Made by a program: the position numbers and the translations under genes | Notes under the pieces: model-generated | Databases searched by the model: none | What the model was told of the DNA's origin: nothing | Seen by the model: the letters and a program-made list of their open reading frames with translations, nothing else | Shown: one piece after another, positions 1,910-50,617 of the stretch | How the letters are laid out: each line of letters opens with the position of its first letter | Position numbering within the stretch: the first letter of the stretch is position 1 | Source of the DNA: Bacteroidetes bacterium 2013_40CM_41_45 | GTDB taxonomy: Bacteria; Bacteroidota; Bacteroidia; AKYH767-A; 2013-40CM-41-45 | Length of the DNA: 64,000 nt | Reading direction: 5' to 3' | Assembly: GCA_002215675.1 (NCBI GenBank) | Contig: NGFH01000002.1 | Coordinates: 347,887 to 411,886 of the forward strand

Positions 1910-1923
1910 AGAAATGAAAAAAA

Positions 1924-1985
1924 GTTAGACGTTAGAGGTTAGTCGTTGTTCTGATATTCATAACGTCTAACGTCTAACGTCCAAC
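1924..1985. repeat. Heptad-repeat inverted element, copy 1 (between two tRNAs)
   Basis: The left arm (1924-1948) is built from GTTAGAC-type heptads. The right arm (1961-1985) is its reverse complement at 21 of 25 positions, built from AACGTCT heptads. The 12-base spacer would form a loop. It occupies nearly all of the gap between the two tRNA genes. Confidence 0.85.
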
Positions 1986-1997
1986 ATTTAATTTCAG

Positions 1998-4841: not shown

Positions 4842-4937
4842 GTTATTAATTATTGGTTATTAGTTATTAGAAAAAAATATATGTTCCGAAAGGGACATCA
4901 GCCAATTCGTACATTCGTACAGATTCGTAGTTCGTAG
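4842..4937. repeat. Heptad-repeat element, copy 2 (mutS/trmH divergent region)
   Basis: The left arm (4842-4870) has GTTATTA-type heptads. The right arm (4904-4937) has ATTCGTA-type units of 7-8 bases. Between them a small hairpin, ATGTTCCGAAAGGGACAT (4881-4898), is visible. The element starts 16 bases from the mutS start and ends 2 bases before the start codon of the methyltransferase, so any promoter for either gene must lie in or overlap it. Confidence 0.75.
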
Positions 4938-7650: not shown

Positions 7651-7666
7651 AAATATATTGGTTGCA

Positions 7667-7690
7667 ATTCTAAACTCTAAACTTTAAATA
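7667..7690. repeat. Heptad-repeat array, copy 3 (folK/sppA)
   Basis: Three consecutive heptads, ATTCTAA, ACTCTAA and ACTTTAA, then ATA, in a single arm between the divergent folK and sppA starts. Confidence 0.7.
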
Positions 7691-7700
7691 TTTTTCTCCG

Positions 7701-9470
7701 ATGAAACAATTTTTCAAAATGATGTTTGCCTCCATGCTGGGCACATTTCTAACCCTCCTGCTCATCATATTTATTTCCCTTATGGTGATGTTCGGAATGA
7801 TTTACTCACTAAAAGATGAATCGAAAACAAAGGTGGAAAAAAACTCGGTTCTAGAAATCAGGTTTGATGAAAAAATAAATGAGCGCAGTTCTGATAAGTT
7901 TCCGAAAATAAATCCCTTCACACAGGATATTGAACCCGGGCTGGGCCTCGACAAAATTCTGGCTTCCATAAAGCGTGCTGAAGACGATGACGATATTAAA
8001 GGTATCTATCTTAATATAGAGGGCATTGATGCCGGCATTACCACCGTTAGTGAAATCAGAAATGCGCTGGTAGAATTTAAAAAATCAAAAAAGTTTATCA
8101 TCTCATACAGTGAAATCTATTCCTTGAAATCGTATTACCTGTCATCGGTGGCTGATAAAATATATGTGAATCCCGAAGGGTATCTAGACTTTCGCGGGCT
8201 GCATACCAACCTGATGTTCTTTAAAGGGACGCTGGAAAAGCTCGATATTGAAGCGCAGATTATCCGTCATGGCAAATATAAAAGTGCAGTAGAGCCTTTT
8301 ATGCTCGATAAGATGAGTAAAGAAAACCGGGAGCAAATCCAGGAGTTGCTTTCCACCATATGGGACGATATGCTGGAAAAGATTTCAGTATCAAGAAATA
8401 TTCCGGTTGATGAGTTAAAGAAAATTGCCAATGAGTTGAAAATCCATAAAGCATCGGATGCTGTGGATGTGAAACTTGCCGATGAAGTAGCCTTCTACGA
8501 CCAGGTGGAGGGTGAGCTTAAGAAATTGTGTGGTGATGAAAAAGCTAAAAAGCTGAAAGAAGTTTCGCTCGCGCAGTATTCCAAGGGCAGCTCTGTATCG
8601 GGGAAATCAACTGCAAAAAATAAAATTGCGGTCATCTATGCAGTCGGCGGCATCCAGGGTGGCAGCGGCAACGAAGAAACCATTGGCTCTGAAACAACTT
8701 CAGCAGCCATACGCAAAGCGCGGCTCGACAGCACTGTGAAAGCGATTGTGATGCGTGTTAATTCACCGGGTGGCAGCGCACTTGCATCCGACGTAATCTG
8801 GAGAGAAGTCATCCTCGCCAAAAAAGCAAAACCGTTTGTTGTTTCCATGGGCGATGTAGCGGCTTCGGGCGGATATTATATTGCCTGCGCTGCCGATACC
8901 ATAGTTTGTGAACCCACTACTATTACGGGCTCGATTGGCGTACTCGGTGTTTTGCTGAACATGCAGAAAATGTTTTCGAACAAGCTCGGCATTACGTTTG
9001 ACACGGTAAAGACAGGCCGCTTTGCCGACATTCTTAACCAGACGCGCCCGCTTACCGAAGAAGAAAAACGGATTGCAACTGCCGAAGTGGAACGCATTTA
9101 TAATTCATTCCTGCAACATGTAGCCGAGGGAAGAAATATGAAGAAAGCAGATGTTGATAGCATAGGGCAGGGAAGAGTATGGAGCGGAGCGGATGCAAAG
9201 CGTCTCGGGCTGATTGATGTCCTCGGCGGTATGAATGATGCCATGAAGATTGCAGCCCGTATGGCAAAAATTGAATCGTACAAGATTATTTCGCTGCCGG
9301 AGCAAAAGGATTTCCTGGAGCGCATTCTTGAAAATATTTCTGCTGATGCAAAAGCGGGTGCCATTAAAACAGAGCTGGGCGATGCCTATCCCTATTACAA
9401 TCAGGTGAAAAATATTTTAAATATGAGAGGCATGCAGGCGCGTATGCCTGTGGATATTATAATAGAATAG
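7701..9470 (+). CDS. sppA: Signal peptide peptidase SppA, 67-kDa type
   Basis: 589 residues, matching the long two-domain SppA. An N-terminal membrane helix spans about residues 9-33 and anchors the protein in the inner membrane. The catalytic Lys is expected in RHGKYKSAVEPF (about residue 195) of the first half. The nucleophile Ser lies in GDVAASGGYYIAC (about 389) of the second half. TITGSIGVLGV after it is also conserved. It degrades leftover signal peptides in the membrane. It is upstream of the exonuclease III gene, separated by 44 bases holding a heptad array. Confidence 0.96.
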   Translation: MKQFFKMMFASMLGTFLTLLLIIFISLMVMFGMIYSLKDESKTKVEKNSVLEIRFDEKINERSSDKFPKINPFTQDIEPGLGLDKILASIKRAEDDDDIKGIYLNIEGIDAGITTVSEIRNALVEFKKSKKFIISYSEIYSLKSYYLSSVADKIYVNPEGYLDFRGLHTNLMFFKGTLEKLDIEAQIIRHGKYKSAVEPFMLDKMSKENREQIQELLSTIWDDMLEKISVSRNIPVDELKKIANELKIHKASDAVDVKLADEVAFYDQVEGELKKLCGDEKAKKLKEVSLAQYSKGSSVSGKSTAKNKIAVIYAVGGIQGGSGNEETIGSETTSAAIRKARLDSTVKAIVMRVNSPGGSALASDVIWREVILAKKAKPFVVSMGDVAASGGYYIACAADTIVCEPTTITGSIGVLGVLLNMQKMFSNKLGITFDTVKTGRFADILNQTRPLTEEEKRIATAEVERIYNSFLQHVAEGRNMKKADVDSIGQGRVWSGADAKRLGLIDVLGGMNDAMKIAARMAKIESYKIISLPEQKDFLERILENISADAKAGAIKTELGDAYPYYNQVKNILNMRGMQARMPVDIIIE

Positions 9471-9473
9471 TTT

Positions 9474-9501
9474 GGTCATTGGTCATTGGTCATTAGTCAT
9501 A
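9474..9501. repeat. Heptad-repeat array, copy 4 (sppA/xth)
   Basis: Four heptads: GGTCATT three times, then AGTCATA. The array starts 3 bases after the sppA stop and ends 13 bases before the exonuclease start. The same heptad type is known from cyanobacterial STRR sequences. Confidence 0.85.
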
Positions 9502-9514
9502 GTAGAAATAATTT

Positions 9515-10297
9515 ATGAATGGAAACGGAAACTTCAGAATCCTTTGTTGGAACGTCAACGGCATCCGAGCCATCAGCAAAAAAAATTTTCCTGAATGGTT
9601 TGCCAAAGAATCGCCCGATATTCTCTGCCTGCAGGAAACCAAAGCGCATCCATCGCAGATTGATGAAGAACTAAGAAATTTCAACGGGTATAAGAGCTGG
9701 TTTTTTTCTGCCGAGAAGAAGGGCTATTCCGGCGTTGCCATTTATTCAAAACATGTGCCGCAGCGGGTTGCTGCAGGATTTAATGAACCCGAGTTTGATT
9801 CGGAAGGAAGGGTGATTGAAATGGAGTTTGAAAAATTTATTTTGTTCAATGCTTATTTCCCTAATGGCGGCAGAGGTGAAGAGAGGGTAAGGTATAAACT
9901 GAAATTTTATGATTCACTTTTCAAAAGAGCCGAAGCTTTGCGCCCAAAACAAAAGAACATCATCATCTGCGGTGATTATAATACGGCGCACAAAGAAATT
10001 GACCTGGCCCGGCCTAAAGAAAATCAAAAGACATCGGGATTTTTACCCGAAGAACGCGCATGGCTCGACAAGATTGTCAGCATGAAATATGTAGACGTTT
10101 TTCGTGAATTCAATAAACAGCCCGGGCAATACACGTACTGGGACCAAATCACACGCGCCCGTGAAAGGAATGTTGGATGGAGAATCGATTACTTTTTTGT
10201 TTCAGAAGAAGCCAGACCACTGGTAAAAAAAGCTTCAATCTATATGGACGTAATGGGCAGCGACCATTGCCCCATCGGCCTTGAGCTGAAAATTTAA
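9515..10297 (+). CDS. xth: Exodeoxyribonuclease III (AP endonuclease)
   Basis: 260 residues of the exonuclease-endonuclease-phosphatase fold. Catalytic motifs are visible in order: CWNVNGIRA (metal/Asn), CLQETKAHP (metal Glu), GDYNTAHKEIDLARP (Asp/Asn), YTYWDQITRARERNVGWRID, and the C-terminal GSDHCPIGLEL with the catalytic Asp-His. It cleaves DNA 5' to abasic sites and removes 3' blocking groups in base excision repair. The start MNGNGNFRILCWN fits the family. It probably follows sppA in transcription. Confidence 0.96.
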   Translation: MNGNGNFRILCWNVNGIRAISKKNFPEWFAKESPDILCLQETKAHPSQIDEELRNFNGYKSWFFSAEKKGYSGVAIYSKHVPQRVAAGFNEPEFDSEGRVIEMEFEKFILFNAYFPNGGRGEERVRYKLKFYDSLFKRAEALRPKQKNIIICGDYNTAHKEIDLARPKENQKTSGFLPEERAWLDKIVSMKYVDVFREFNKQPGQYTYWDQITRARERNVGWRIDYFFVSEEARPLVKKASIYMDVMGSDHCPIGLELKI

Positions 10298-10326
10298 CAT
10301 CCAACGTCCAACGTCCAACGTCTAAC
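10298..10326. repeat. Heptad-repeat array, copy 5 (xth/yqeY)
   Basis: Heptads CATCCAA, CGTCCAA, CGTCCAA and CGTCTAA follow directly after the xth stop codon. The heptad matches the right arm of copy 1. It precedes the -7 promoter box of yqeY by 6 bases. Confidence 0.85.
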
Positions 10327-12171: not shown

Positions 12172-12714
12172 CTATTCTGCAGGAGGAGCTTCAGGTGTTT
12201 CCGCAGTAGGTGCTTCAGCAGCCGGAGCTTCAGGTGCTGCTGCTTCAGCGGGTGGAGGTATGTTCTTTTTGCGGATAGCTTCGGCACGCTCTTCCTTCTT
12301 TTTACTTTCTGTTTCAAGCGCAGATACAGTAGCTTTTTTCTTTTCAGCCAGCACGCGTACACGTTTCTCGCTCACTTTCCTGTTTTTTTCTTCGAGCCAT
12401 GCATTATACTTTTCATCGGCTTGTTCTTGCGTAAGAACTCCTTTAGCGACTCCATTCTGGAGATGTTGTTTGTAAAGCACTCCTTTGTATGAAAGAATAG
12501 CGCGGGTAGTGTCTGTGGGCTGCGCTCCGTTTTTCAGCCACTGCAATGCTTTCTCATTATCAAGAATAATGGTTGCTGGATTTGAATTGGGGTCATACGA
12601 ACCGATTTGTTCTATGAACCTTCCGTCTCTTGACCTGCGGCTGTCTGCCACAACAATATGGTAATAAGGAATTCCTCTTTTACCGAGTCGTTTTAATCTG
12701 ATTTTTACAGGCAT
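12172..12714 (-). CDS. rpsP: Small ribosomal subunit protein bS16 with long C-terminal extension
   Basis: 180 residues, about twice the size of Escherichia coli bS16. The first 85 or so are the ribosomal domain ([55 protein letters not shown]). A charged helical stretch rich in Lys/Glu (about 95-150) follows. The last 30 residues are almost only Pro, Ala and Glu. Long tails on bS16 are known in Bacteroidota, but their role is unknown. It is the first gene of rpsP-rimM-trmN6. Confidence 0.97.
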
Positions 12715-12719
12715 TTAAT

Positions 12720-12761
12720 AATTGATAATTGATAGTTGATAATTAATAATTGACTAATGAC
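12720..12761. repeat. Heptad-repeat array, copy 6 (upstream of rpsP)
   Basis: Six units: AATTGAT, AATTGAT, AGTTGAT, AATTAAT, AATTGAC, TAATGAC. They start 6 bases upstream of the rpsP start codon. The array therefore covers the place where the untranslated leader of a major ribosomal operon should be. Confidence 0.85.
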
Positions 12762-13632: not shown

Positions 13633-13788
13633 GCGAATAACGAATGGATGCGAATTTGCGAATAAACTTCAGACAATCTTTTAAATTTTTTCACGCAAAG
13701 TGCGCTAAGGTTTCGCAAAAGACCGCTGAGAAAAAAGAAGGAAAACTATAAAATGCTGCAAATCGTAAGTCGTAAATAGTAAATCGTA
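13633..13788. repeat. Heptad-repeat region, copy 7 (murQ/E1 gap)
   Basis: The 161-base gap holds two repeat blocks. One has irregular CGAAT units (13633-13665). The other is a clean array AATCGTA, AGTCGTA, AATAGTA, AATCGTA (13761-13788), which ends 2 bases before the E1 stop codon. Between them lies a region with ACGCAAAG, TGCGCTAAGG and CGCAAAAG units (13692-13725) that looks like a third, period-variable repeat. No gene is seen here. Confidence 0.7.
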
Positions 13789-13790
13789 CA

Positions 13791-16220
13791 TCAGTATATC
13801 GGAGGGTACTTTTGAGGATTGTACTCACTCATCATTTCGTAAACAACATCGAAAACGTCTTCAGTATTTGGCTTGGAAAAATAATCTCCGTCTGAACCAT
13901 AAGGAGGACGGTGCGGTTTTGAAGTCAGAGTTCTCGGCTCTGCATCCAGGAATTGAAATGCTTTTTGCTCTTCAATTATTTTTTGAAGGATGTACGCGCT
14001 TGCTCCCCCGGGAACATCTTCATCCACAACAAGAAGCTTGTTGGTTTTTTTTACTGACTCCGCAATGCTGTGATGAATGTCGAATGGAAGCAGGGTCTGC
14101 ACATCAATTACTTCACAACTTATTCCGAATTGCTCGAGCTGCTTAATTGCTTCCAAAACTATTCTATGTGTGGAACCATAGGTTGCAATGGTTATATCAG
14201 TTCCTTCATGAAGAATTTCCGGAACTCCAAGCGGTATACGGAACTCACCTACATTGACGGGAAGTTTTTCTTTAAGGCGGTATGAATTCAATGGCTCCAC
14301 AATCAATGCCGGCTCATCGCTTGCAAGCATGGTGTTGTAAAAGCCCGCAGCCTGAGTCATATTGCGCGGCACAAGAACATGAATTCCACGGATGGCATGA
14401 GTAATCATTCCCATAGGCGAACCGCTGTGCCAGATTCCTTCGAGGCGGTGTCCCCGCGTGCGGATGATGAGCGGAGCCTTTTGTCCGCCTTTGGTGCGGT
14501 ATAAAAGTGTTGCGAGGTCATCGCTCAAAACCTGCATTGCAAATAAAAAGTAATCGAGATATTGAATCTCTGCAATGGGCCTTAGTCCGCGCATCGCCAG
14601 CCCGATTCCCTGTCCTGCAATGGTTGCTTCGCGAATACCGGTATCCGTAATCCGGATTTCTCCATACTTCGCCTGCAATCCGGCAAACCCCTGGTTCACG
14701 TCACCTATTTTTCCAAGGTCTTCGCCAAAGGCAACCAGCAACGGGTTGTTCTTAAACAGCGCATCGAAATTCGCCTGCAAAACTTCGCGCCCGTCAACAA
14801 CAGGAGCATTATTATCATAGCGCGCTGCAACCGGCTCCACCTTAAGAGCGGAATCCGCTGACTCACTGTACAAATATGAATTGTACCGTTTGGCATTTTG
14901 TTTTACGCTTTCATTCAGCCAATCAACCAGCCGGTGTTTTGGTACAGTATCCTCATCGCGCATAAGACGCAAAACTTTTTTTACAGCCCCTAATATATCC
15001 CTGCGCATGGCATCGGGAAGAGAATTCAAATCATTGCTGATTTTTTCCACTTCATCCCGCTGCTGACTTTCAGCCGCAATCTCAGAAAAGATAGTTGTAA
15101 CTTCTTTTATTTCTGCGCGAATAGGTGAAAGAAATTCTTCCCATGCTTTCCGCTTGCTTTCATTTACAAACTTTTTTGCTTCTTCTTCAATGGAATCAAG
15201 CGCTTCGTCTTTTGCAATGGCAGAATCTATAATCCACCGGCGCATCCTGGAAATGCAATCATATTCTTCTTCCCACGCCAAGCGCTCTTTTGATTTGTAC
15301 CGCTCGTGCGAGCCGGAAGTAGAATGCCCCTGCGGCTGCGTCATTTCCTGTATGTGGAAAATTACAGGCACATGATTTTTTCTACACTGCGCAATTCCTT
15401 CCTCATACATTTCACAAAGCCCTGCGTAATCCCAGCCCTTTCCGCGATAGATTAAATATCCCGGTCCGTTTTCATCCTGCTCAAATCCCTTCAGCGCCTC
15501 TGAAATACTACTCTTGGTAGTTTGGTATTCGATGGGAACGGAAATTCCGTAACCATCATCCCAAACAGAAACAGCCATAGGTATCTGCAAAACTCCGGCA
15601 GCGTTGATGCTCTCCCAAAATAATCCTTCCGATGTTCCGGCATCACCGATGGTGCAAAAAGTCACTTCATTTCCCTTATCAGAAAACTGTGTGAACTGGT
15701 GCAGGTCTTTATTGTTACGAAATAATTTTGACGCCCATGCCAGCCCTACTGCTCTTGGCATCTGCGTAGAAATAGGCGCCAGGTCTGACGAAGAATTTTT
15801 TATTTCGGTTAAATTTTTCCAACTGCCATCATCGTTTAAGCTGCGGGTAGCAAAGTGAGCATCCATTTGCCTGCCGGCAGAAAAGGGTTCATGATTCAAA
15901 TCGGTATCGGCATACAGCTGGGCAAAGAGTTGTTGGACAGTTGCTGTTCCGGTAGCAAACATAAAAGTCTGGTCACGGTAATAGCCCGCACGGAAATCAC
16001 CTTTGTGGAAAGCCTTTGCCATTGCAAGCTGCGCTATTTCCTTCCCATCGCCAAAAATGCCAAACTTAGCTTTGCCGGTAAGTACTTCTTTTCTTCCGAG
16101 CAGCGATGCCTGCCGGCTGTAGAAAGCAACGCGGTAATCGTCCAGGACTTCTTTTTTGAAATCCTCAAACGACATATCCTTTTTCTCCACTTGCGAATCG
16201 GGCTTTTTTCCTTTTGCCAT
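13791..16220 (-). CDS. 2-oxoacid dehydrogenase E1, fused alpha and beta subunits
   Basis: 809 residues from the ATG giving MAKGKKPDSQVEKKDMS; an upstream in-frame ATG at 16274 lies beyond the -7 promoter box and is rejected. The N-terminal half (to about 420) is the thiamine-diphosphate-binding alpha part, with GDAGTSEGLFWESINAAG and SVWDDGYGIS. The C-terminal half is the beta part (AFGEDLGKIGDVNQGFAGL, EATIAGQGIGLAMRGLRPIAE, VVDEDVPGGASAYI). With E2 and E3 it would decarboxylate pyruvate or a branched-chain 2-oxoacid; the substrate is not decidable here. The usual GDG before the cofactor motif reads GDA. E2 and E3 genes are not adjacent. Confidence 0.92.
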   Translation of the reverse strand: MAKGKKPDSQVEKKDMSFEDFKKEVLDDYRVAFYSRQASLLGRKEVLTGKAKFGIFGDGKEIAQLAMAKAFHKGDFRAGYYRDQTFMFATGTATVQQLFAQLYADTDLNHEPFSAGRQMDAHFATRSLNDDGSWKNLTEIKNSSSDLAPISTQMPRAVGLAWASKLFRNNKDLHQFTQFSDKGNEVTFCTIGDAGTSEGLFWESINAAGVLQIPMAVSVWDDGYGISVPIEYQTTKSSISEALKGFEQDENGPGYLIYRGKGWDYAGLCEMYEEGIAQCRKNHVPVIFHIQEMTQPQGHSTSGSHERYKSKERLAWEEEYDCISRMRRWIIDSAIAKDEALDSIEEEAKKFVNESKRKAWEEFLSPIRAEIKEVTTIFSEIAAESQQRDEVEKISNDLNSLPDAMRRDILGAVKKVLRLMRDEDTVPKHRLVDWLNESVKQNAKRYNSYLYSESADSALKVEPVAARYDNNAPVVDGREVLQANFDALFKNNPLLVAFGEDLGKIGDVNQGFAGLQAKYGEIRITDTGIREATIAGQGIGLAMRGLRPIAEIQYLDYFLFAMQVLSDDLATLLYRTKGGQKAPLIIRTRGHRLEGIWHSGSPMGMITHAIRGIHVLVPRNMTQAAGFYNTMLASDEPALIVEPLNSYRLKEKLPVNVGEFRIPLGVPEILHEGTDITIATYGSTHRIVLEAIKQLEQFGISCEVIDVQTLLPFDIHHSIAESVKKTNKLLVVDEDVPGGASAYILQKIIEEQKAFQFLDAEPRTLTSKPHRPPYGSDGDYFSKPNTEDVFDVVYEMMSEYNPQKYPPIY

Positions 16221-17584: not shown

Positions 17585-18182
17585 TTTGTCGTAAATGGTT
17601 TGCCAGGTAAATTTTCAGGTTACGTTTTCCATTTTGGATGTAACTCTTTACCTGTTTCATGGTGTACCCGGTGATTTCAGAAACTTCTTCGTAGCACTTT
17701 TCTTTCAAATAAAATAATTCAATGCAGGCGCGCTGTTCAGCATTCAGATTTTGTATGGCGTGCGGAAGAATCTCGAGAAAATGCTCTGAACTATTTTCTT
17801 CAAACAAACCCGGCATCAATCCCTCTTCCATTACACCGTCTTCAGTTACCAGCAGCGCATCATCATAATTCTTCATAGCATCACGGCTGCGAAGCTGCAT
17901 CAAACAGTAATTCTTAGAGACGGTGTGAAGCCAATAGCTGAATTTTTCTACTTCATGCTTCTGCAAGTCCGTACGCAGCTTTTCAAAAATCTGCATGGTG
18001 GCATCGCGGCTTTCTTCTTTATCTTTTAAATATTTCATGCAAACTCCACATACAAGGTGCACATACCGCTCAAACAACACACCCAGCGCCTGCGCGTTTT
18101 TACCCGACTTAAATTCATGAATCAGCTCTGCATCGCTCTTTTCAGAAGATGCCGATTGGGTTTTTCTCTTAATCCAAAGCAT
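17568..18182 (-). CDS. RNA polymerase sigma factor, ECF subfamily
   Basis: 204 residues with sigma region 2 (LFERYVHLVCGVCMKYLKD, DATMQIFEKL) and region 4 (LNAEQRACIELFYLKEKCYEEVSEITGYTMKQVKSYIQNGKRNLK), and no region 1 or 3. The intervening linker is acidic and longer than average. It would direct polymerase to a small regulon under control of the overlapping zinc-finger protein. The divergent neighbour encoding a von Willebrand A protein is a candidate target. A heptad-repeat inverted element begins 5 bases upstream of its start. Confidence 0.92.
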   Translation of the reverse strand: MLWIKRKTQSASSEKSDAELIHEFKSGKNAQALGVLFERYVHLVCGVCMKYLKDKEESRDATMQIFEKLRTDLQKHEVEKFSYWLHTVSKNYCLMQLRSRDAMKNYDDALLVTEDGVMEEGLMPGLFEENSSEHFLEILPHAIQNLNAEQRACIELFYLKEKCYEEVSEITGYTMKQVKSYIQNGKRNLKIYLANHLRQNEKFN

Positions 18183-18186
18183 TGGG

Positions 18187-18263
18187 CGTTAGACGTTAGA
18201 TGTTAGACGTTATACAATTACTGAACCACGTCATTTTTTTCGTATAACTTATAACATGTAACG
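18187..18263. repeat. Heptad-repeat inverted element, copy 8 (sigma/VWA divergent region)
   Basis: The left arm (18187-18215) has heptads CGTTAGA, CGTTAGA, TGTTAGA, CGTTATA. The right arm (18242-18263) has GTATAAC, TTATAAC, ATGTAAC, roughly the reverse complement. It lies between the sigma gene and the divergent VWA gene; the remaining 125 bases before the VWA start show no gene. Confidence 0.8.
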
Positions 18264-18388
18264 ATTTCCATATTTTAAGATGCAACGGCAAACATTATTC
18301 CATAAATGTAAAGCAAAAAATAATTGAATGTTTTTATGGAATTTCCTATCTCCCGTCATCTAATCATTAAAACCTCAAACCACTTCCT

Positions 18389-20389: not shown

Positions 20390-21270
20390 GAAAATATTTC
20401 CTCCCTGTTTTCAGGATGAAACCATTTTATCTCTTTGTCTTTGTTAAACCATGTAAGCTGTCGCTTGGCATACCGCCTCGAATTTCTTTGGATGAGCTCA
20501 ACCGCCTCCTCGAGAGAAATTTTCCCCTCCAGGTGAGCAAATAGTTCTTTGTATCCAACCGTTTGAAGTGCATGATGATGGCGAAACGGGAAAAGCTGTT
20601 TCGCTTCATCCAGTAAACCATCCCGCATCATTTGAGCAACGCGTTCATTTATTCTTTCGTACAGGGTTTTTCTATCCGCTTTCAGCCCGATTTTTAAGAC
20701 TGAAAAATTCCGCTTCGCTTTTTTTCGGGAGCGCAGTTCCGAAAATTTTTTCCCCGTAAGCATGCAGACCTCGATGGCACGCATGACCCGGTGTGTGTTA
20801 TTTAAGTCAACAGCATTATAATAATCAATGTCAAGCTGTTTTAGTTTTTCCTGCAGGGCTTCAATTCCTTTCGATTCGAAAAGCGCAGATAATTCAGCGC
20901 GGATAGTTGAATCGCGCTCGGGCAGCCGGTCAAACCCGCTGCAGACGGCATCTATGTATAAACCTGAACCACCTGCAAGAATAGCAACATCATTTGACGA
21001 AAAAACCTCATCCAGTTTTTTAAGAGCATCCGTTTCAAATTTACCTGCATCATAATCATCTTTAACCGAGAGTGAATTTATAAAATGATGCTTTACTTTT
21101 TTTAACTGTTCTTCCGTTGGCTTTGCCGTGCCGATATTCATCTCTCTGAAAAACTGCCTGGAGTCGGCAGAAATAATTTCTGTTTTCAGCAGCAACGCCA
21201 GTTCAACAGCAAGAACCGTTTTGCCGGAAGCCGTAGGCCCGGTAATTATTAGTAATACTTTTTTTTTAAT
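20362..21270 (-). CDS. miaA: tRNA dimethylallyltransferase, apparent AUU start
   Basis: 302 residues if translation starts at the ATT codon at 21268-21270. The P-loop GPTASGKT lies upstream of the first TTG or ATG, so any conventional start would delete the ATP site. Reading up from the P-loop gives KKKVLLIITGPTASGKT, preceded by ATT exactly where homologues have Met, and the frame closes with TAA ten bases above it. The rest is typical: EIISADSRQFFREMNIGTAKP, LAGGSGLYIDAVCSGFD, NNTHRVMRAIEV, and a Tyr/Arg-rich tail. It adds dimethylallyl to A37 of tRNAs reading U-starting codons. It overlaps the VWA gene end. Confidence 0.9.
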   Translation of the reverse strand: MKKKVLLIITGPTASGKTVLAVELALLLKTEIISADSRQFFREMNIGTAKPTEEQLKKVKHHFINSLSVKDDYDAGKFETDALKKLDEVFSSNDVAILAGGSGLYIDAVCSGFDRLPERDSTIRAELSALFESKGIEALQEKLKQLDIDYYNAVDLNNTHRVMRAIEVCMLTGKKFSELRSRKKAKRNFSVLKIGLKADRKTLYERINERVAQMMRDGLLDEAKQLFPFRHHHALQTVGYKELFAHLEGKISLEEAVELIQRNSRRYAKRQLTWFNKDKEIKWFHPENREEIFSYLSLTTSV

Positions 21271-21281
21271 GGGAGGGATGG

Positions 21282-21360
21282 CGTTATACGTTATTAGTTA
21301 TACGTTATACGAATTAACCAGTATCAAAAGCGTATAACTTATAACGTATAACATATAACT
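21282..21360. repeat. Heptad-repeat inverted element, copy 9 (upstream of miaA)
   Basis: The left arm 21282-21311 (CGTTATA, CGTTATT, AGTTATA, CGTTATA, CG) and right arm 21331-21360 (GTATAAC, TTATAAC, GTATAAC, ATATAAC) are inverted copies matching at 25 of 30 positions around a 19-base loop. It lies 11 bases from the miaA start and 7 bases from the stop of the next gene. Confidence 0.9.
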
Positions 21361-21367
21361 ATTTTTG

Positions 21368-21964
21368 TCAGTCTTCACCTTCGCGTGGCTCTTCCTCTGC
21401 ATCCGGCTCTCCCGGGGTCAATTCATCGAGGCTGATTTTTTCAACACCATCTTCCGCATCTGCTTCTTCTGAATCTGACGATTCATTGGATTCTTCGACA
21501 AGGACCTCTTCTTCAACAAAATCTTCAGGGACAGGAACAACTTTCGGGCCGGCATCGTGCTGCTTGGGAGCCTCACCATTTATTTTTACGCATCGCGGAT
21601 ACATGGCCCCGATTTCTTCGCTGACAATAATTTTTAAAAGCTCAACGCGGAACGCCCACTCATTCAAAAAATCATATACGTAATAAATTTTCTGGTGAGG
21701 GTCGGCAATAAAATCGCAGAGCCGCGATTTTTTCATCATCGGAATTTTCCCTTCTCCGTCAGACATATCGGCCAGCGTAATTTCCCGGCCCTTCTTCCAA
21801 TTGTCATCGCTCATAAAGAAGGATGCCATTTCTTTATTGTCAAAACCGATGGAGCTTAGAATTGCCGAATGCAAATCCTCGAACGACTGGGTAGATTTTA
21901 TTTCCAGGTCGCGGCTTACATCCTCGTGGTCTTCAAACGTAACTCTGAATTTATAGACAGCCAT
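21368..21964 (-). CDS. pRiA4b ORF-3-like protein
   Basis: 198 residues. The N-terminal 150 match the pRiA4b ORF-3 family pattern (VYKFRVTFEDHEDVSRDLEI, SFEDLHSAILSSIGFD, MASFFMSDDNWKKGREI, YYVYDFLNEWAFRVELLKI). The last 50 residues are extremely acidic (runs of Glu/Asp). The family is named after plasmid and insertion-element passengers, but no transposase or terminal repeats are near, so here it seems a resident gene of unknown function. A TATTTTTG promoter box lies 63 bases upstream. Confidence 0.85.
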   Translation of the reverse strand: MAVYKFRVTFEDHEDVSRDLEIKSTQSFEDLHSAILSSIGFDNKEMASFFMSDDNWKKGREITLADMSDGEGKIPMMKKSRLCDFIADPHQKIYYVYDFLNEWAFRVELLKIIVSEEIGAMYPRCVKINGEAPKQHDAGPKVVPVPEDFVEEEVLVEESNESSDSEEADAEDGVEKISLDELTPGEPDAEEEPREGED

Positions 21965-49211: not shown

Positions 49212-49733
49212 ATGAAAGAAATCCGGAATATCTTTATAGTGGATGATGACGCAATGCAGTCCACGATGCTTGCTGACCACCTCAGTAAATATTCGTACCT
49301 GAACATACAATCGTATTTATCGGGCGAAGAGTGCATGAAAAACCTGGAAACCGAAAAACCGCAGATTGTATTCCTCGATTATTATTTCGATAAAGTAGGC
49401 ATAGGCGCCATGAACGGGCTTGATATTCTTAAAGCCATCAAAGCCAAAAGCCCTGCCACAGAAGTGGTGATGTGGTCGGGCCAGGATAAAATTGAAGTGG
49501 CTGTCAACACCATGAAATACGGGGCGTTTGATTACATCGTAAAAAGCGAAAGCGCATTTCACCGTTCGGAAAATGTCATTTTCAACATCATCCGCAAACT
49601 CAAGCTCGAATATAGTGCGAAGTATTATAAGCGGCTCACCATTATTTTCGGAGTTGTACTGGCGCTAATGATAATTGCAGCCATTGTCCTTCAACTCATG
49701 GGCAAAATTTCGGTGAATCCGGGCTGGATGTGA
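49212..49733 (+). CDS. Receiver domain with C-terminal membrane anchor
   Basis: 173 residues. An N-terminal receiver carries the acidic residues in IFIVDDDAMQS, the phosphoacceptor Asp in IVFLDYYFDK (about residue 56), and Lys in DYIVKSESAF. After it, at about residues 141-165, a single hydrophobic helix (LTIIFGVVLALMIIAAIVLQ) is followed by a short tail. Response regulators with a C-terminal membrane helix are unusual. The likely partner is the Hpt protein encoded just upstream. Output is unknown. Confidence 0.88.
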   Translation: MKEIRNIFIVDDDAMQSTMLADHLSKYSYLNIQSYLSGEECMKNLETEKPQIVFLDYYFDKVGIGAMNGLDILKAIKAKSPATEVVMWSGQDKIEVAVNTMKYGAFDYIVKSESAFHRSENVIFNIIRKLKLEYSAKYYKRLTIIFGVVLALMIIAAIVLQLMGKISVNPGWM

Positions 49734-49737
49734 TAGT

Positions 49738-49823
49738 AGTTATAAGTTATATGTTATTCATTATACGTCTGCCTAGAACTGGTTTTGTTTTCGTATGACT
49801 AATAACGTATGACGTATAATTAT
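49738..49823. repeat. Heptad-repeat inverted element, copy 11
   Basis: The left arm (49738-49766) has AGTTATA, AGTTATA, TGTTATT, CATTATA. The right arm (49792-49823) has CGTATGA, CTAATAA, CGTATGA, CGTATAA, inverted relative to the left. It fills the gap between the receiver gene and the omega-amidase gene. Confidence 0.82.
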
Positions 49824-49831
49824 TTATCCTG

Positions 49832-50617
49832 ATGGACGACCTCCGCATAACTCTTATACAGACGTCCCTCCATTGGGAAAACCCTGCTGCCAACCGGCAG
49901 ATGTTTTCAAAGCATTTCGATTCCGTTAAAGAAGAAACAGATATAATTGTTTTGCCCGAAATGTTCAGCACCGGCTTTACGATGAATACTTCTGCAGCAG
50001 AACCTATGAATGGCGAAACGGTTGAATGGCTGAAGCAGGAAGCTCAACGAAAAAAGTGCGTCATCACGGGTAGTTTGCTTATCGAAGAAACAGGAGAATA
50101 TTTTAACCGGCTCTTCTGGATGAAACCGGATGGAATTTTTTTGACGTATGACAAGCGTCACCTGTTTCGTCTTTCAGGAGAAGAAAAAGTTTTCACTCCA
50201 GGAAATAAAAAACTTATAACAGAATTGAAGGGATGGAAAATCTGCCCGATGGTTTGTTATGACCTTCGCTTTCCGGTATGGTCAAGAAGAACGCCTGAAT
50301 CGGATTACGATGTTTTAATTTATGCAGCCAACTGGCCGCGGAAAAGAATTGCTGCGTGGAACCTGCTGTTGCCGGCGCGTGCCGTAGAAAACCAGTCGTA
50401 TGTTATTGGCGTTAACCGGTGGGGTAAAGATGGAACCAACGCAGAGCATCCCGGTTATTCTGTTGCTCTTGATTTTGCAGGAAAAAAATTAAACAATAAA
50501 GAATCAGGAGAATTTATTGAAACCATTTCGCTTTCCGCTTCAACGCTTCAGCAATTCCGTAACCAATTTCCTTTTCACCTGGATGCTGATAGATTTAAGC
50601 TGGAGAACGGAGAATAA
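49832..50617 (+). CDS. Omega-amidase, YafV-type carbon-nitrogen hydrolase
   Basis: 261 residues of the nitrilase superfamily. Catalytic Glu in VLPEMFSTGFTM, Lys in YDKRHLFRLSGE, and Cys in CPMVCYDLRFPVWSR; also NWPRKRIAAWNLLLPARAVE. The pattern matches the omega-amidase/YafV branch, which hydrolyses 2-oxoglutaramate or 2-oxosuccinamate and repairs side products of transamination. The start ATG lies 8 bases after heptad array copy 11. Confidence 0.93.
   Translation: MDDLRITLIQTSLHWENPAANRQMFSKHFDSVKEETDIIVLPEMFSTGFTMNTSAAEPMNGETVEWLKQEAQRKKCVITGSLLIEETGEYFNRLFWMKPDGIFLTYDKRHLFRLSGEEKVFTPGNKKLITELKGWKICPMVCYDLRFPVWSRRTPESDYDVLIYAANWPRKRIAAWNLLLPARAVENQSYVIGVNRWGKDGTNAEHPGYSVALDFAGKKLNNKESGEFIETISLSASTLQQFRNQFPFHLDADRFKLENGE

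Follow-up and report, generated by a model that had tools for sequence, protein, structure and literature searches.

Heptameric repeats of the sequence GGGAATC have been described in Xanthomonas campestris and X. axonopodis (Rehm et al. 2015, PMC4692102). They are intergenic, comprise four units and occur as 70-75 convergent pairs per genome, with the G strand facing the gap; they are located near stop codons and are rare at divergent pairs. The authors linked the four units to the G-quadruplex minimum and left the function open (PMC4692102). The same paper mentions the STRR heptanucleotides of Calothrix. TAACTGA direct repeats are known from Beggiatoaceae, Cyanobacteria and some Bacteroidetes (MacGregor 2015, PMC4679880). 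In the P6b element of the Nostoc trnL (tRNA-Leu UAA) intron, two unrelated heptad classes lead to similar secondary structures, and 7-base units have been gained and lost (PMC4476775).

The arrays in the genome of the uncultured Bacteroidota bacterium studied here (G000, 3.38 Mb) share with the Xanthomonas GGGAATC repeats the period of 7, the intergenic location, the length of about four units, the convergent arrangement and a G strand directed from the gene to the gap. Unlike the G-rich GGGAATC, which is capable of quadruplex formation, the heptads are mostly AT-rich here, with one or two separated G, and belong to many families. The TAACTGA repeats are similar in their TAACNNN form and intergenic location, being placed in forward orientation before start codons, with one reversed set right after a stop codon; they differ in consisting of one fixed heptad in direct repetition, the main genome having 169 direct sets and only one indirect repeat (PMC4679880). 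Nostoc P6b is likewise a stem-loop with 7-base repeats on both sides, but is found within the group I intron of one gene and not at many gene junctions (PMC4476775). Our best reading of the elements is that they are DNA-level inverted heptad pairs and constitute an AT-rich variant of the kind known as GGGAATC pairs in Xanthomonas.

The window, that is, the whole stretch of 64 kb under analysis, corresponds to G000:C1:347887-411886. A sequence-only reading had noticed that the arrays at 1924, 18187, 21282 and 49738 are each followed by an array of the reverse-complement heptad, and all four were recovered with Tandem Repeats Finder (Table 1). At 21282, direct reading of the 30-base arm CGTTATACGTTATTAGTTATACGTTATACG against 21331-21360 in reverse complement gave 25 identical positions out of 30, with a loop of 19 bases between the arms. 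The long stems expected from such arms were predicted for three of the four elements, which fold strongly (z -5.2 to -6.8), while the element at 18187 folds weakly. The window also contains single arrays, of which those at 9472 and 10296 do not fold; the TTGGTCA unit at 9472 may be one of the units of the Calothrix STRR sequences, which are tandem heptads in direct repetition. Searches of the window against Rfam yielded two tRNAs and no other match.

Table 1. Heptad elements of the 64-kb window (window coordinates). Folds are given as segment, free energy in kcal/mol and z versus shuffles.
Type	Heptad	Extent	Arms	Loop (bases)	Tandem Repeats Finder arrays	Surroundings	RNA fold
Inverted pair	GTTAGAC family	1920..1989	1920-1947 + 1962-1989	14	1924-1947/1961-1985	tRNA-Leu(TAA) and tRNA-Gly(GCC)	1915-1992; -29.3; z -6.8
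Single array	GTTATTA	4843..4870				mutS upstream side	
Single array	TCTAAAC	7666..7688				flanked by divergent genes	
Single array	TTGGTCA	9472..9500				immediately past stop at 9470	without RNA fold
Single array	AACGTCC	10296..10326				overlaps stop at 10297	without RNA fold
Single array	ATAATTG (period 14 too)	12715..12758				immediately upstream of ORF 12172-12714	
Single array	AAATCGT	13760..13801				flanked by two minus-strand genes	
Inverted pair, unlike arms	left mainly GTTAGAC; right the reverse complement of GTTATAC-type heptads	18188..18262	second arm 18240-18262		18187-18212	5 bases from sigma-factor gene start	18180-18270; -19.2; z -2.1 (weak)
Inverted pair	GTTATAC family	21283..21359	21283-21311 + 21331-21359	19	21282-21311/21331-21360	ORF 21368-21964 (minus) and miaA (minus)	21275-21365; -29.8; z -6.4
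Inverted pair	GTTATAC family, drifted	49737..49822			49738-49757/49792-49819	3 bases past stop of ORF 49212-49733, 9 bases before ORF 49832-50617	49734-49831; -28.7; z -5.2

One of the genes beside the 21282 element, miaA, lacks ATG, GTG or TTG at the expected start (window 21195-21262), and its conserved frame reaches the heptad array via a run of nine A. The closest MiaA among named relatives has ~60% identity and originates from Bacteroidetes MAGs.

The feature is real and abundant beyond the window. A scan of 1.5 Mb of G000 detected 184 arrays with period 7, compared to 4-34 for each of the periods 5, 6, 8-11 and 13, and 140 of the 184 were intergenic. Among 87 GTTA-type arrays with at least three units, 83 were intergenic. 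Their length was narrowly distributed, with 4 units in 54 arms, 3 in 26, 5 in 6 and 7 in a single one. All 27 adjacent pairs of such arrays were convergent, with GTTANNN toward the loop and NNNTAAC away from it; counted by mates, 59 were convergent, none divergent and none on the same strand, and 28 had no mate. The paired pattern GTTANNNGTTA-N18..48-TAACNNNTAAC matched the genome 117 times, overlapping registers included, versus 0 matches for the reversed control. The excess of inverted arms over tandem-only arrays, which the sequence-only reading required, is thus large, and it is found again in the relative G006 described below. The loops mostly have 10-38 bases, and elements of the GTTATAC family measure ~77 bp. 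Within the GTTA arms, heptad positions 1-4 are much better conserved than position 7.

We located 66 hairpins of G000 and G006 in gaps for which both neighbouring genes were called by a simple script that gives approximate start positions: 52 separated co-directional genes, 8 divergent and 6 convergent ones. At the co-directional junctions, the nearer boundary was a stop codon in 39 cases versus 11 (Wilcoxon P=0.003). Restricted to cases with 40 bp or more of remaining gap, the bias lost significance (P=0.10). For the same class of gaps, distances to the nearest gene matched random placement, and insertion through recognition of gene ends was rejected. An early impression of an association with start codons was reversed once the full hairpins of both genomes were considered. 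The elements are strongly polar: in G000 and G006 together, G outnumbers C in the 5' arm of 67 out of 69 hairpins, with 2 exceptions. The six convergent junctions all show this polarity too, so it cannot be put down to G being avoided ahead of start codons.

G006 belongs to a different genus of the same family. It contains 49 period-7 arrays in 314 kb, versus 0-9 arrays of other periods, and its heptads are diverse (GTTTAAG, GTTTACR, GAATGCA, GGAATAA, GAGATTT and others), usually with one heptad common to both arms. The best flank score was 14.1 for inverted and 7.9 for direct matches; scores of at least 14 were reached by 37 of 69 arrays in inverted and by 6 of 69 in direct orientation, and by 2 of 150 random 30-mers. 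These flank scores are unbiased, whereas the gap between own and swapped arms in the selected hairpin list of the two genomes is partly built in, because the elements were chosen for having an inverted mate. Arm length is alike in G000 and G006 despite the different heptads. In the stretches sampled from the remaining genomes of the family no arrays were found; arrays do occur in some order-level and class-level relatives. Across the class, the pair GTTATACG..CGTATAAC was confined to 3 of the 395 genomes. Together with the heptad diversity of G006, this indicates that the recurrent feature is the geometry, not the sequence.

Among 32 orthologous junctions conserved between G000 and G006, arrays were present in both genomes at 3, with different heptads each time, compared to ~1 expected (hypergeometric P ~0.04, computed by hand). 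Five junctions had an array in G006 alone. Here the gaps measure 22, 34, 41, 47 and 146 bp in array-free G000 and 80, 81, 126, 152 and 223 bp in G006, each list being sorted on its own and not paired by entry; the means are 58 and 132 bp, a difference of 74. Longer gaps in the presence of an array fit addition rather than replacement. At the miaA junction, a GTTCATR pair is found in L127 and further heptads in other Bacteroidota.

Further repeats were noted in other genomes. G008 contains a 62-bp palindrome GTTAAAAGTTATTCCGGG...CGGAAATAACTTTTAAC in at least 15 identical copies (e.g. C1:865704-865765), which, in contrast to the heptad pairs, has the appearance of an ordinary dispersed repeat. 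In G021, hairpins of GTTATGA heptads are dispersed in nearly identical copies (e.g. C2:30877-30930). Long arrays in L183 (12524-12625 and 17486-17625; GGTTTCGGGTTTT and GTTTCGA) far exceed the arms of four units.

How the two arms relate to each other was addressed mainly in the GTTATAx elements. The statement that both arms share the same local heptad holds in part: the arms usually match in family, most clearly in G006, and are unlike in the 18187 element and at C1:289456 and C1:641909. That slippage alone is insufficient was borne out, as neighbouring heptads within GTTATAx arms were identical in 9 of 111 cases versus 19.3 expected (P=0.0013); identical opposite heptads were below expectation, too. 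The sequence-only reading further held that the arms must be converted together or copied from each other. The heptad family shared within an element is consistent with copying, but a continuing process is not supported by the comparison of own with swapped arms. Own arms fold worse than swapped ones (-20.0 vs -21.9 kcal/mol, 0 of 5000 permutations), and outside the inner heptad their triad identity is 0.510 compared to 0.605 for randomly dealt arms (P=0.0003). When the order of one arm was shuffled, mirroring of heptad order past the innermost heptad was absent in this genome (P=0.45) and weak in G006 (P=0.008). With own arms less alike and this little mirroring, there is no sign of ongoing conversion between the arms. 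Loss of unstable exact repeats would yield the low identity of own arms and of neighbours. Alternatively, the GTTATAx copies might go back to an ancestral element whose two arms already differed, in line with a weak sign of two distinct arm types per element (P=0.015).

For the origin of the elements we prefer a local, DNA-level process at gene junctions through 7-base misalignment and inverted copying, to which we assign a probability of roughly 0.4. Additions of ~75 bp would arise locally in intergenic gaps. Misalignment by 7 bases during replication would generate a short array, and template switching across the loop would then produce its inverted copy, so that both arms would initially have the same heptad. 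Subsequently, the heptads would drift, and exactly identical copies, in tandem or on opposite arms, would be lost owing to their instability. The elements may persist in intergenic gaps because they are harmless there, and GTTATAC has additionally become common at dozens of junctions of this genome. We count for local origin the diverse heptads of G006, the unrelated loops, the longer array-bearing gaps and the differing heptads at orthologous junctions, as well as the balance of G-U and A-C mismatches and the scarcity of identical neighbouring or opposite heptads. SbcD is half of a palindrome-cutting nuclease. It scored above the family cut-off in 3 of the 61 genomes of the relatives set (G001-G060 being the relatives), this genome not among them, and was found in most control genomes; hence hairpins may be tolerated where it is missing. 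Loss of SbcD as the cause was rejected, its absence being nearly order-wide and not separating array-rich from array-poor genomes.

Several observations are not accounted for by misalignment and inverted copying. Slippage predicts a broad spread of lengths, and nearly all arms (80 of 87) have 3-4 units. The G polarity (67:2) is not predicted, and the many loci of one heptad here, with GTTATACG..CGTATAAC in 3 of 395 class genomes, are left unexplained. Mirrored heptad order would be expected right after copying, and its absence or weakness argues against local origin. The conservation of positions 1-4 relative to position 7 looks like constraint or copying in trans and also counts against it.

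Selection on intercistronic RNA stem-loops is a possible if doubtful alternative. A stem of 28-30 bp past the stop codon could be an RNase III processing site or block 3' exonucleases, in the manner of REP or intercistronic processing hairpins, and any pairing heptad would work. The strong folds, the predominance of co-directional junctions (52 of 66) with the stop codon nearer (39 vs 11) and the similar arm length in two genomes with different heptads agree with this explanation. Selection on an RNA stem predicts more G-U than A-C mismatches on the transcribed strand, but on the sense strand of 52 co-directional elements 56 G-U were balanced by 53 A-C mismatches (P=0.85), so selection at the RNA level is not supported. 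The balance speaks for a DNA-level origin or no stem selection, with modest selection possible given 52 elements. The worse pairing of own GTTATAx arms compared to swapped ones, the eight hairpins at divergent junctions and the loss of significance of the stop-side bias in the larger gaps are further points against RNA stems. Intrinsic terminators or G-quadruplex elements are disfavoured and highly improbable, although their intergenic position and, as in Xanthomonas (PMC4692102), the convergent G strand would suit them: the stems are not followed directly by a U-tract (at least 4 T in 6 in 11 of 52 cases, versus a background of 12%), and since heptads of most families contain no more than one or two separated G, a quadruplex is impossible for the dominant ones.

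We regard it as unlikely that the pairs are a dispersed palindromic element of the MITE or REP type, copied in trans, with the GTTATAC family representing copies whose loops diverged or were replaced. Such copying would explain why a single heptad family is found at dozens of loci, the inner end (GTTATACG..CGTATAAC) being constant and the size ~77 bp, and the longer gaps in the presence of an array as well as the two possible arm types are compatible with it. However, kinship among the loops was not recognisable (similarity 5.67 vs 5.35 for shuffled loops), near-identical copies of whole elements were absent from the list of 38 hairpins in G000, and in G006 the heptads change from hairpin to hairpin. 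REP/BIME sequences and REPINs with their RAYT are likewise intergenic palindromes near stop codons, but here a conserved palindrome core is lacking and the arms consist of 7-base units that vary by heptad family. Mobilisation by RAYT was rejected: the sole Y1 transposase (RAYT) match of the genome (G000:C1:282186-282527, minus strand) is broken by an in-frame TAA and adjoins a different, unrelated palindrome family, TTGGCTTTAGCCAA. Y1_Tnp was detected in 19 of 21 genomes, regardless of array abundance. The attC sites of integrons, which have a 7-bp core site GTTRRRY, were considered for this core and excluded by their reversed orientation. A protein with sequence specificity for GTTATA at 7-bp intervals on either side of the loop would fit the conserved positions 1-4, the free position 7 and the constant arm length; such putative binding sites are nevertheless very improbable, because many unrelated heptad families share one geometry within a single genome and the heptads are genome-specific.

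Because the Xanthomonas geometry occurs here with heptads containing one G each, quadruplex formation cannot be its general reason, and some other cause must underlie the length of four units, the step of 7 and the inward G strand. We suggest, tentatively and with considerable doubt, a cross-phylum class of intergenic elements whose defining trait would be geometry, whatever the sequence: convergent arrays, two per element and of about four heptads each, around a short unique loop, with the 5' arm carrying G. Some specific, perhaps dedicated, process would write the heptad of a lineage at its gene junctions; Xanthomonas, Nostoc, Beggiatoa and Bacteroidota would be instances, and the quadruplex would be incidental. 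In Bacteroidota, heptad pairs are a hazard for annotation and for the prediction of promoters and terminators. The combination of lineage-own heptads with constant geometry provides a natural test of whether hairpins are written by mutation or kept by selection.
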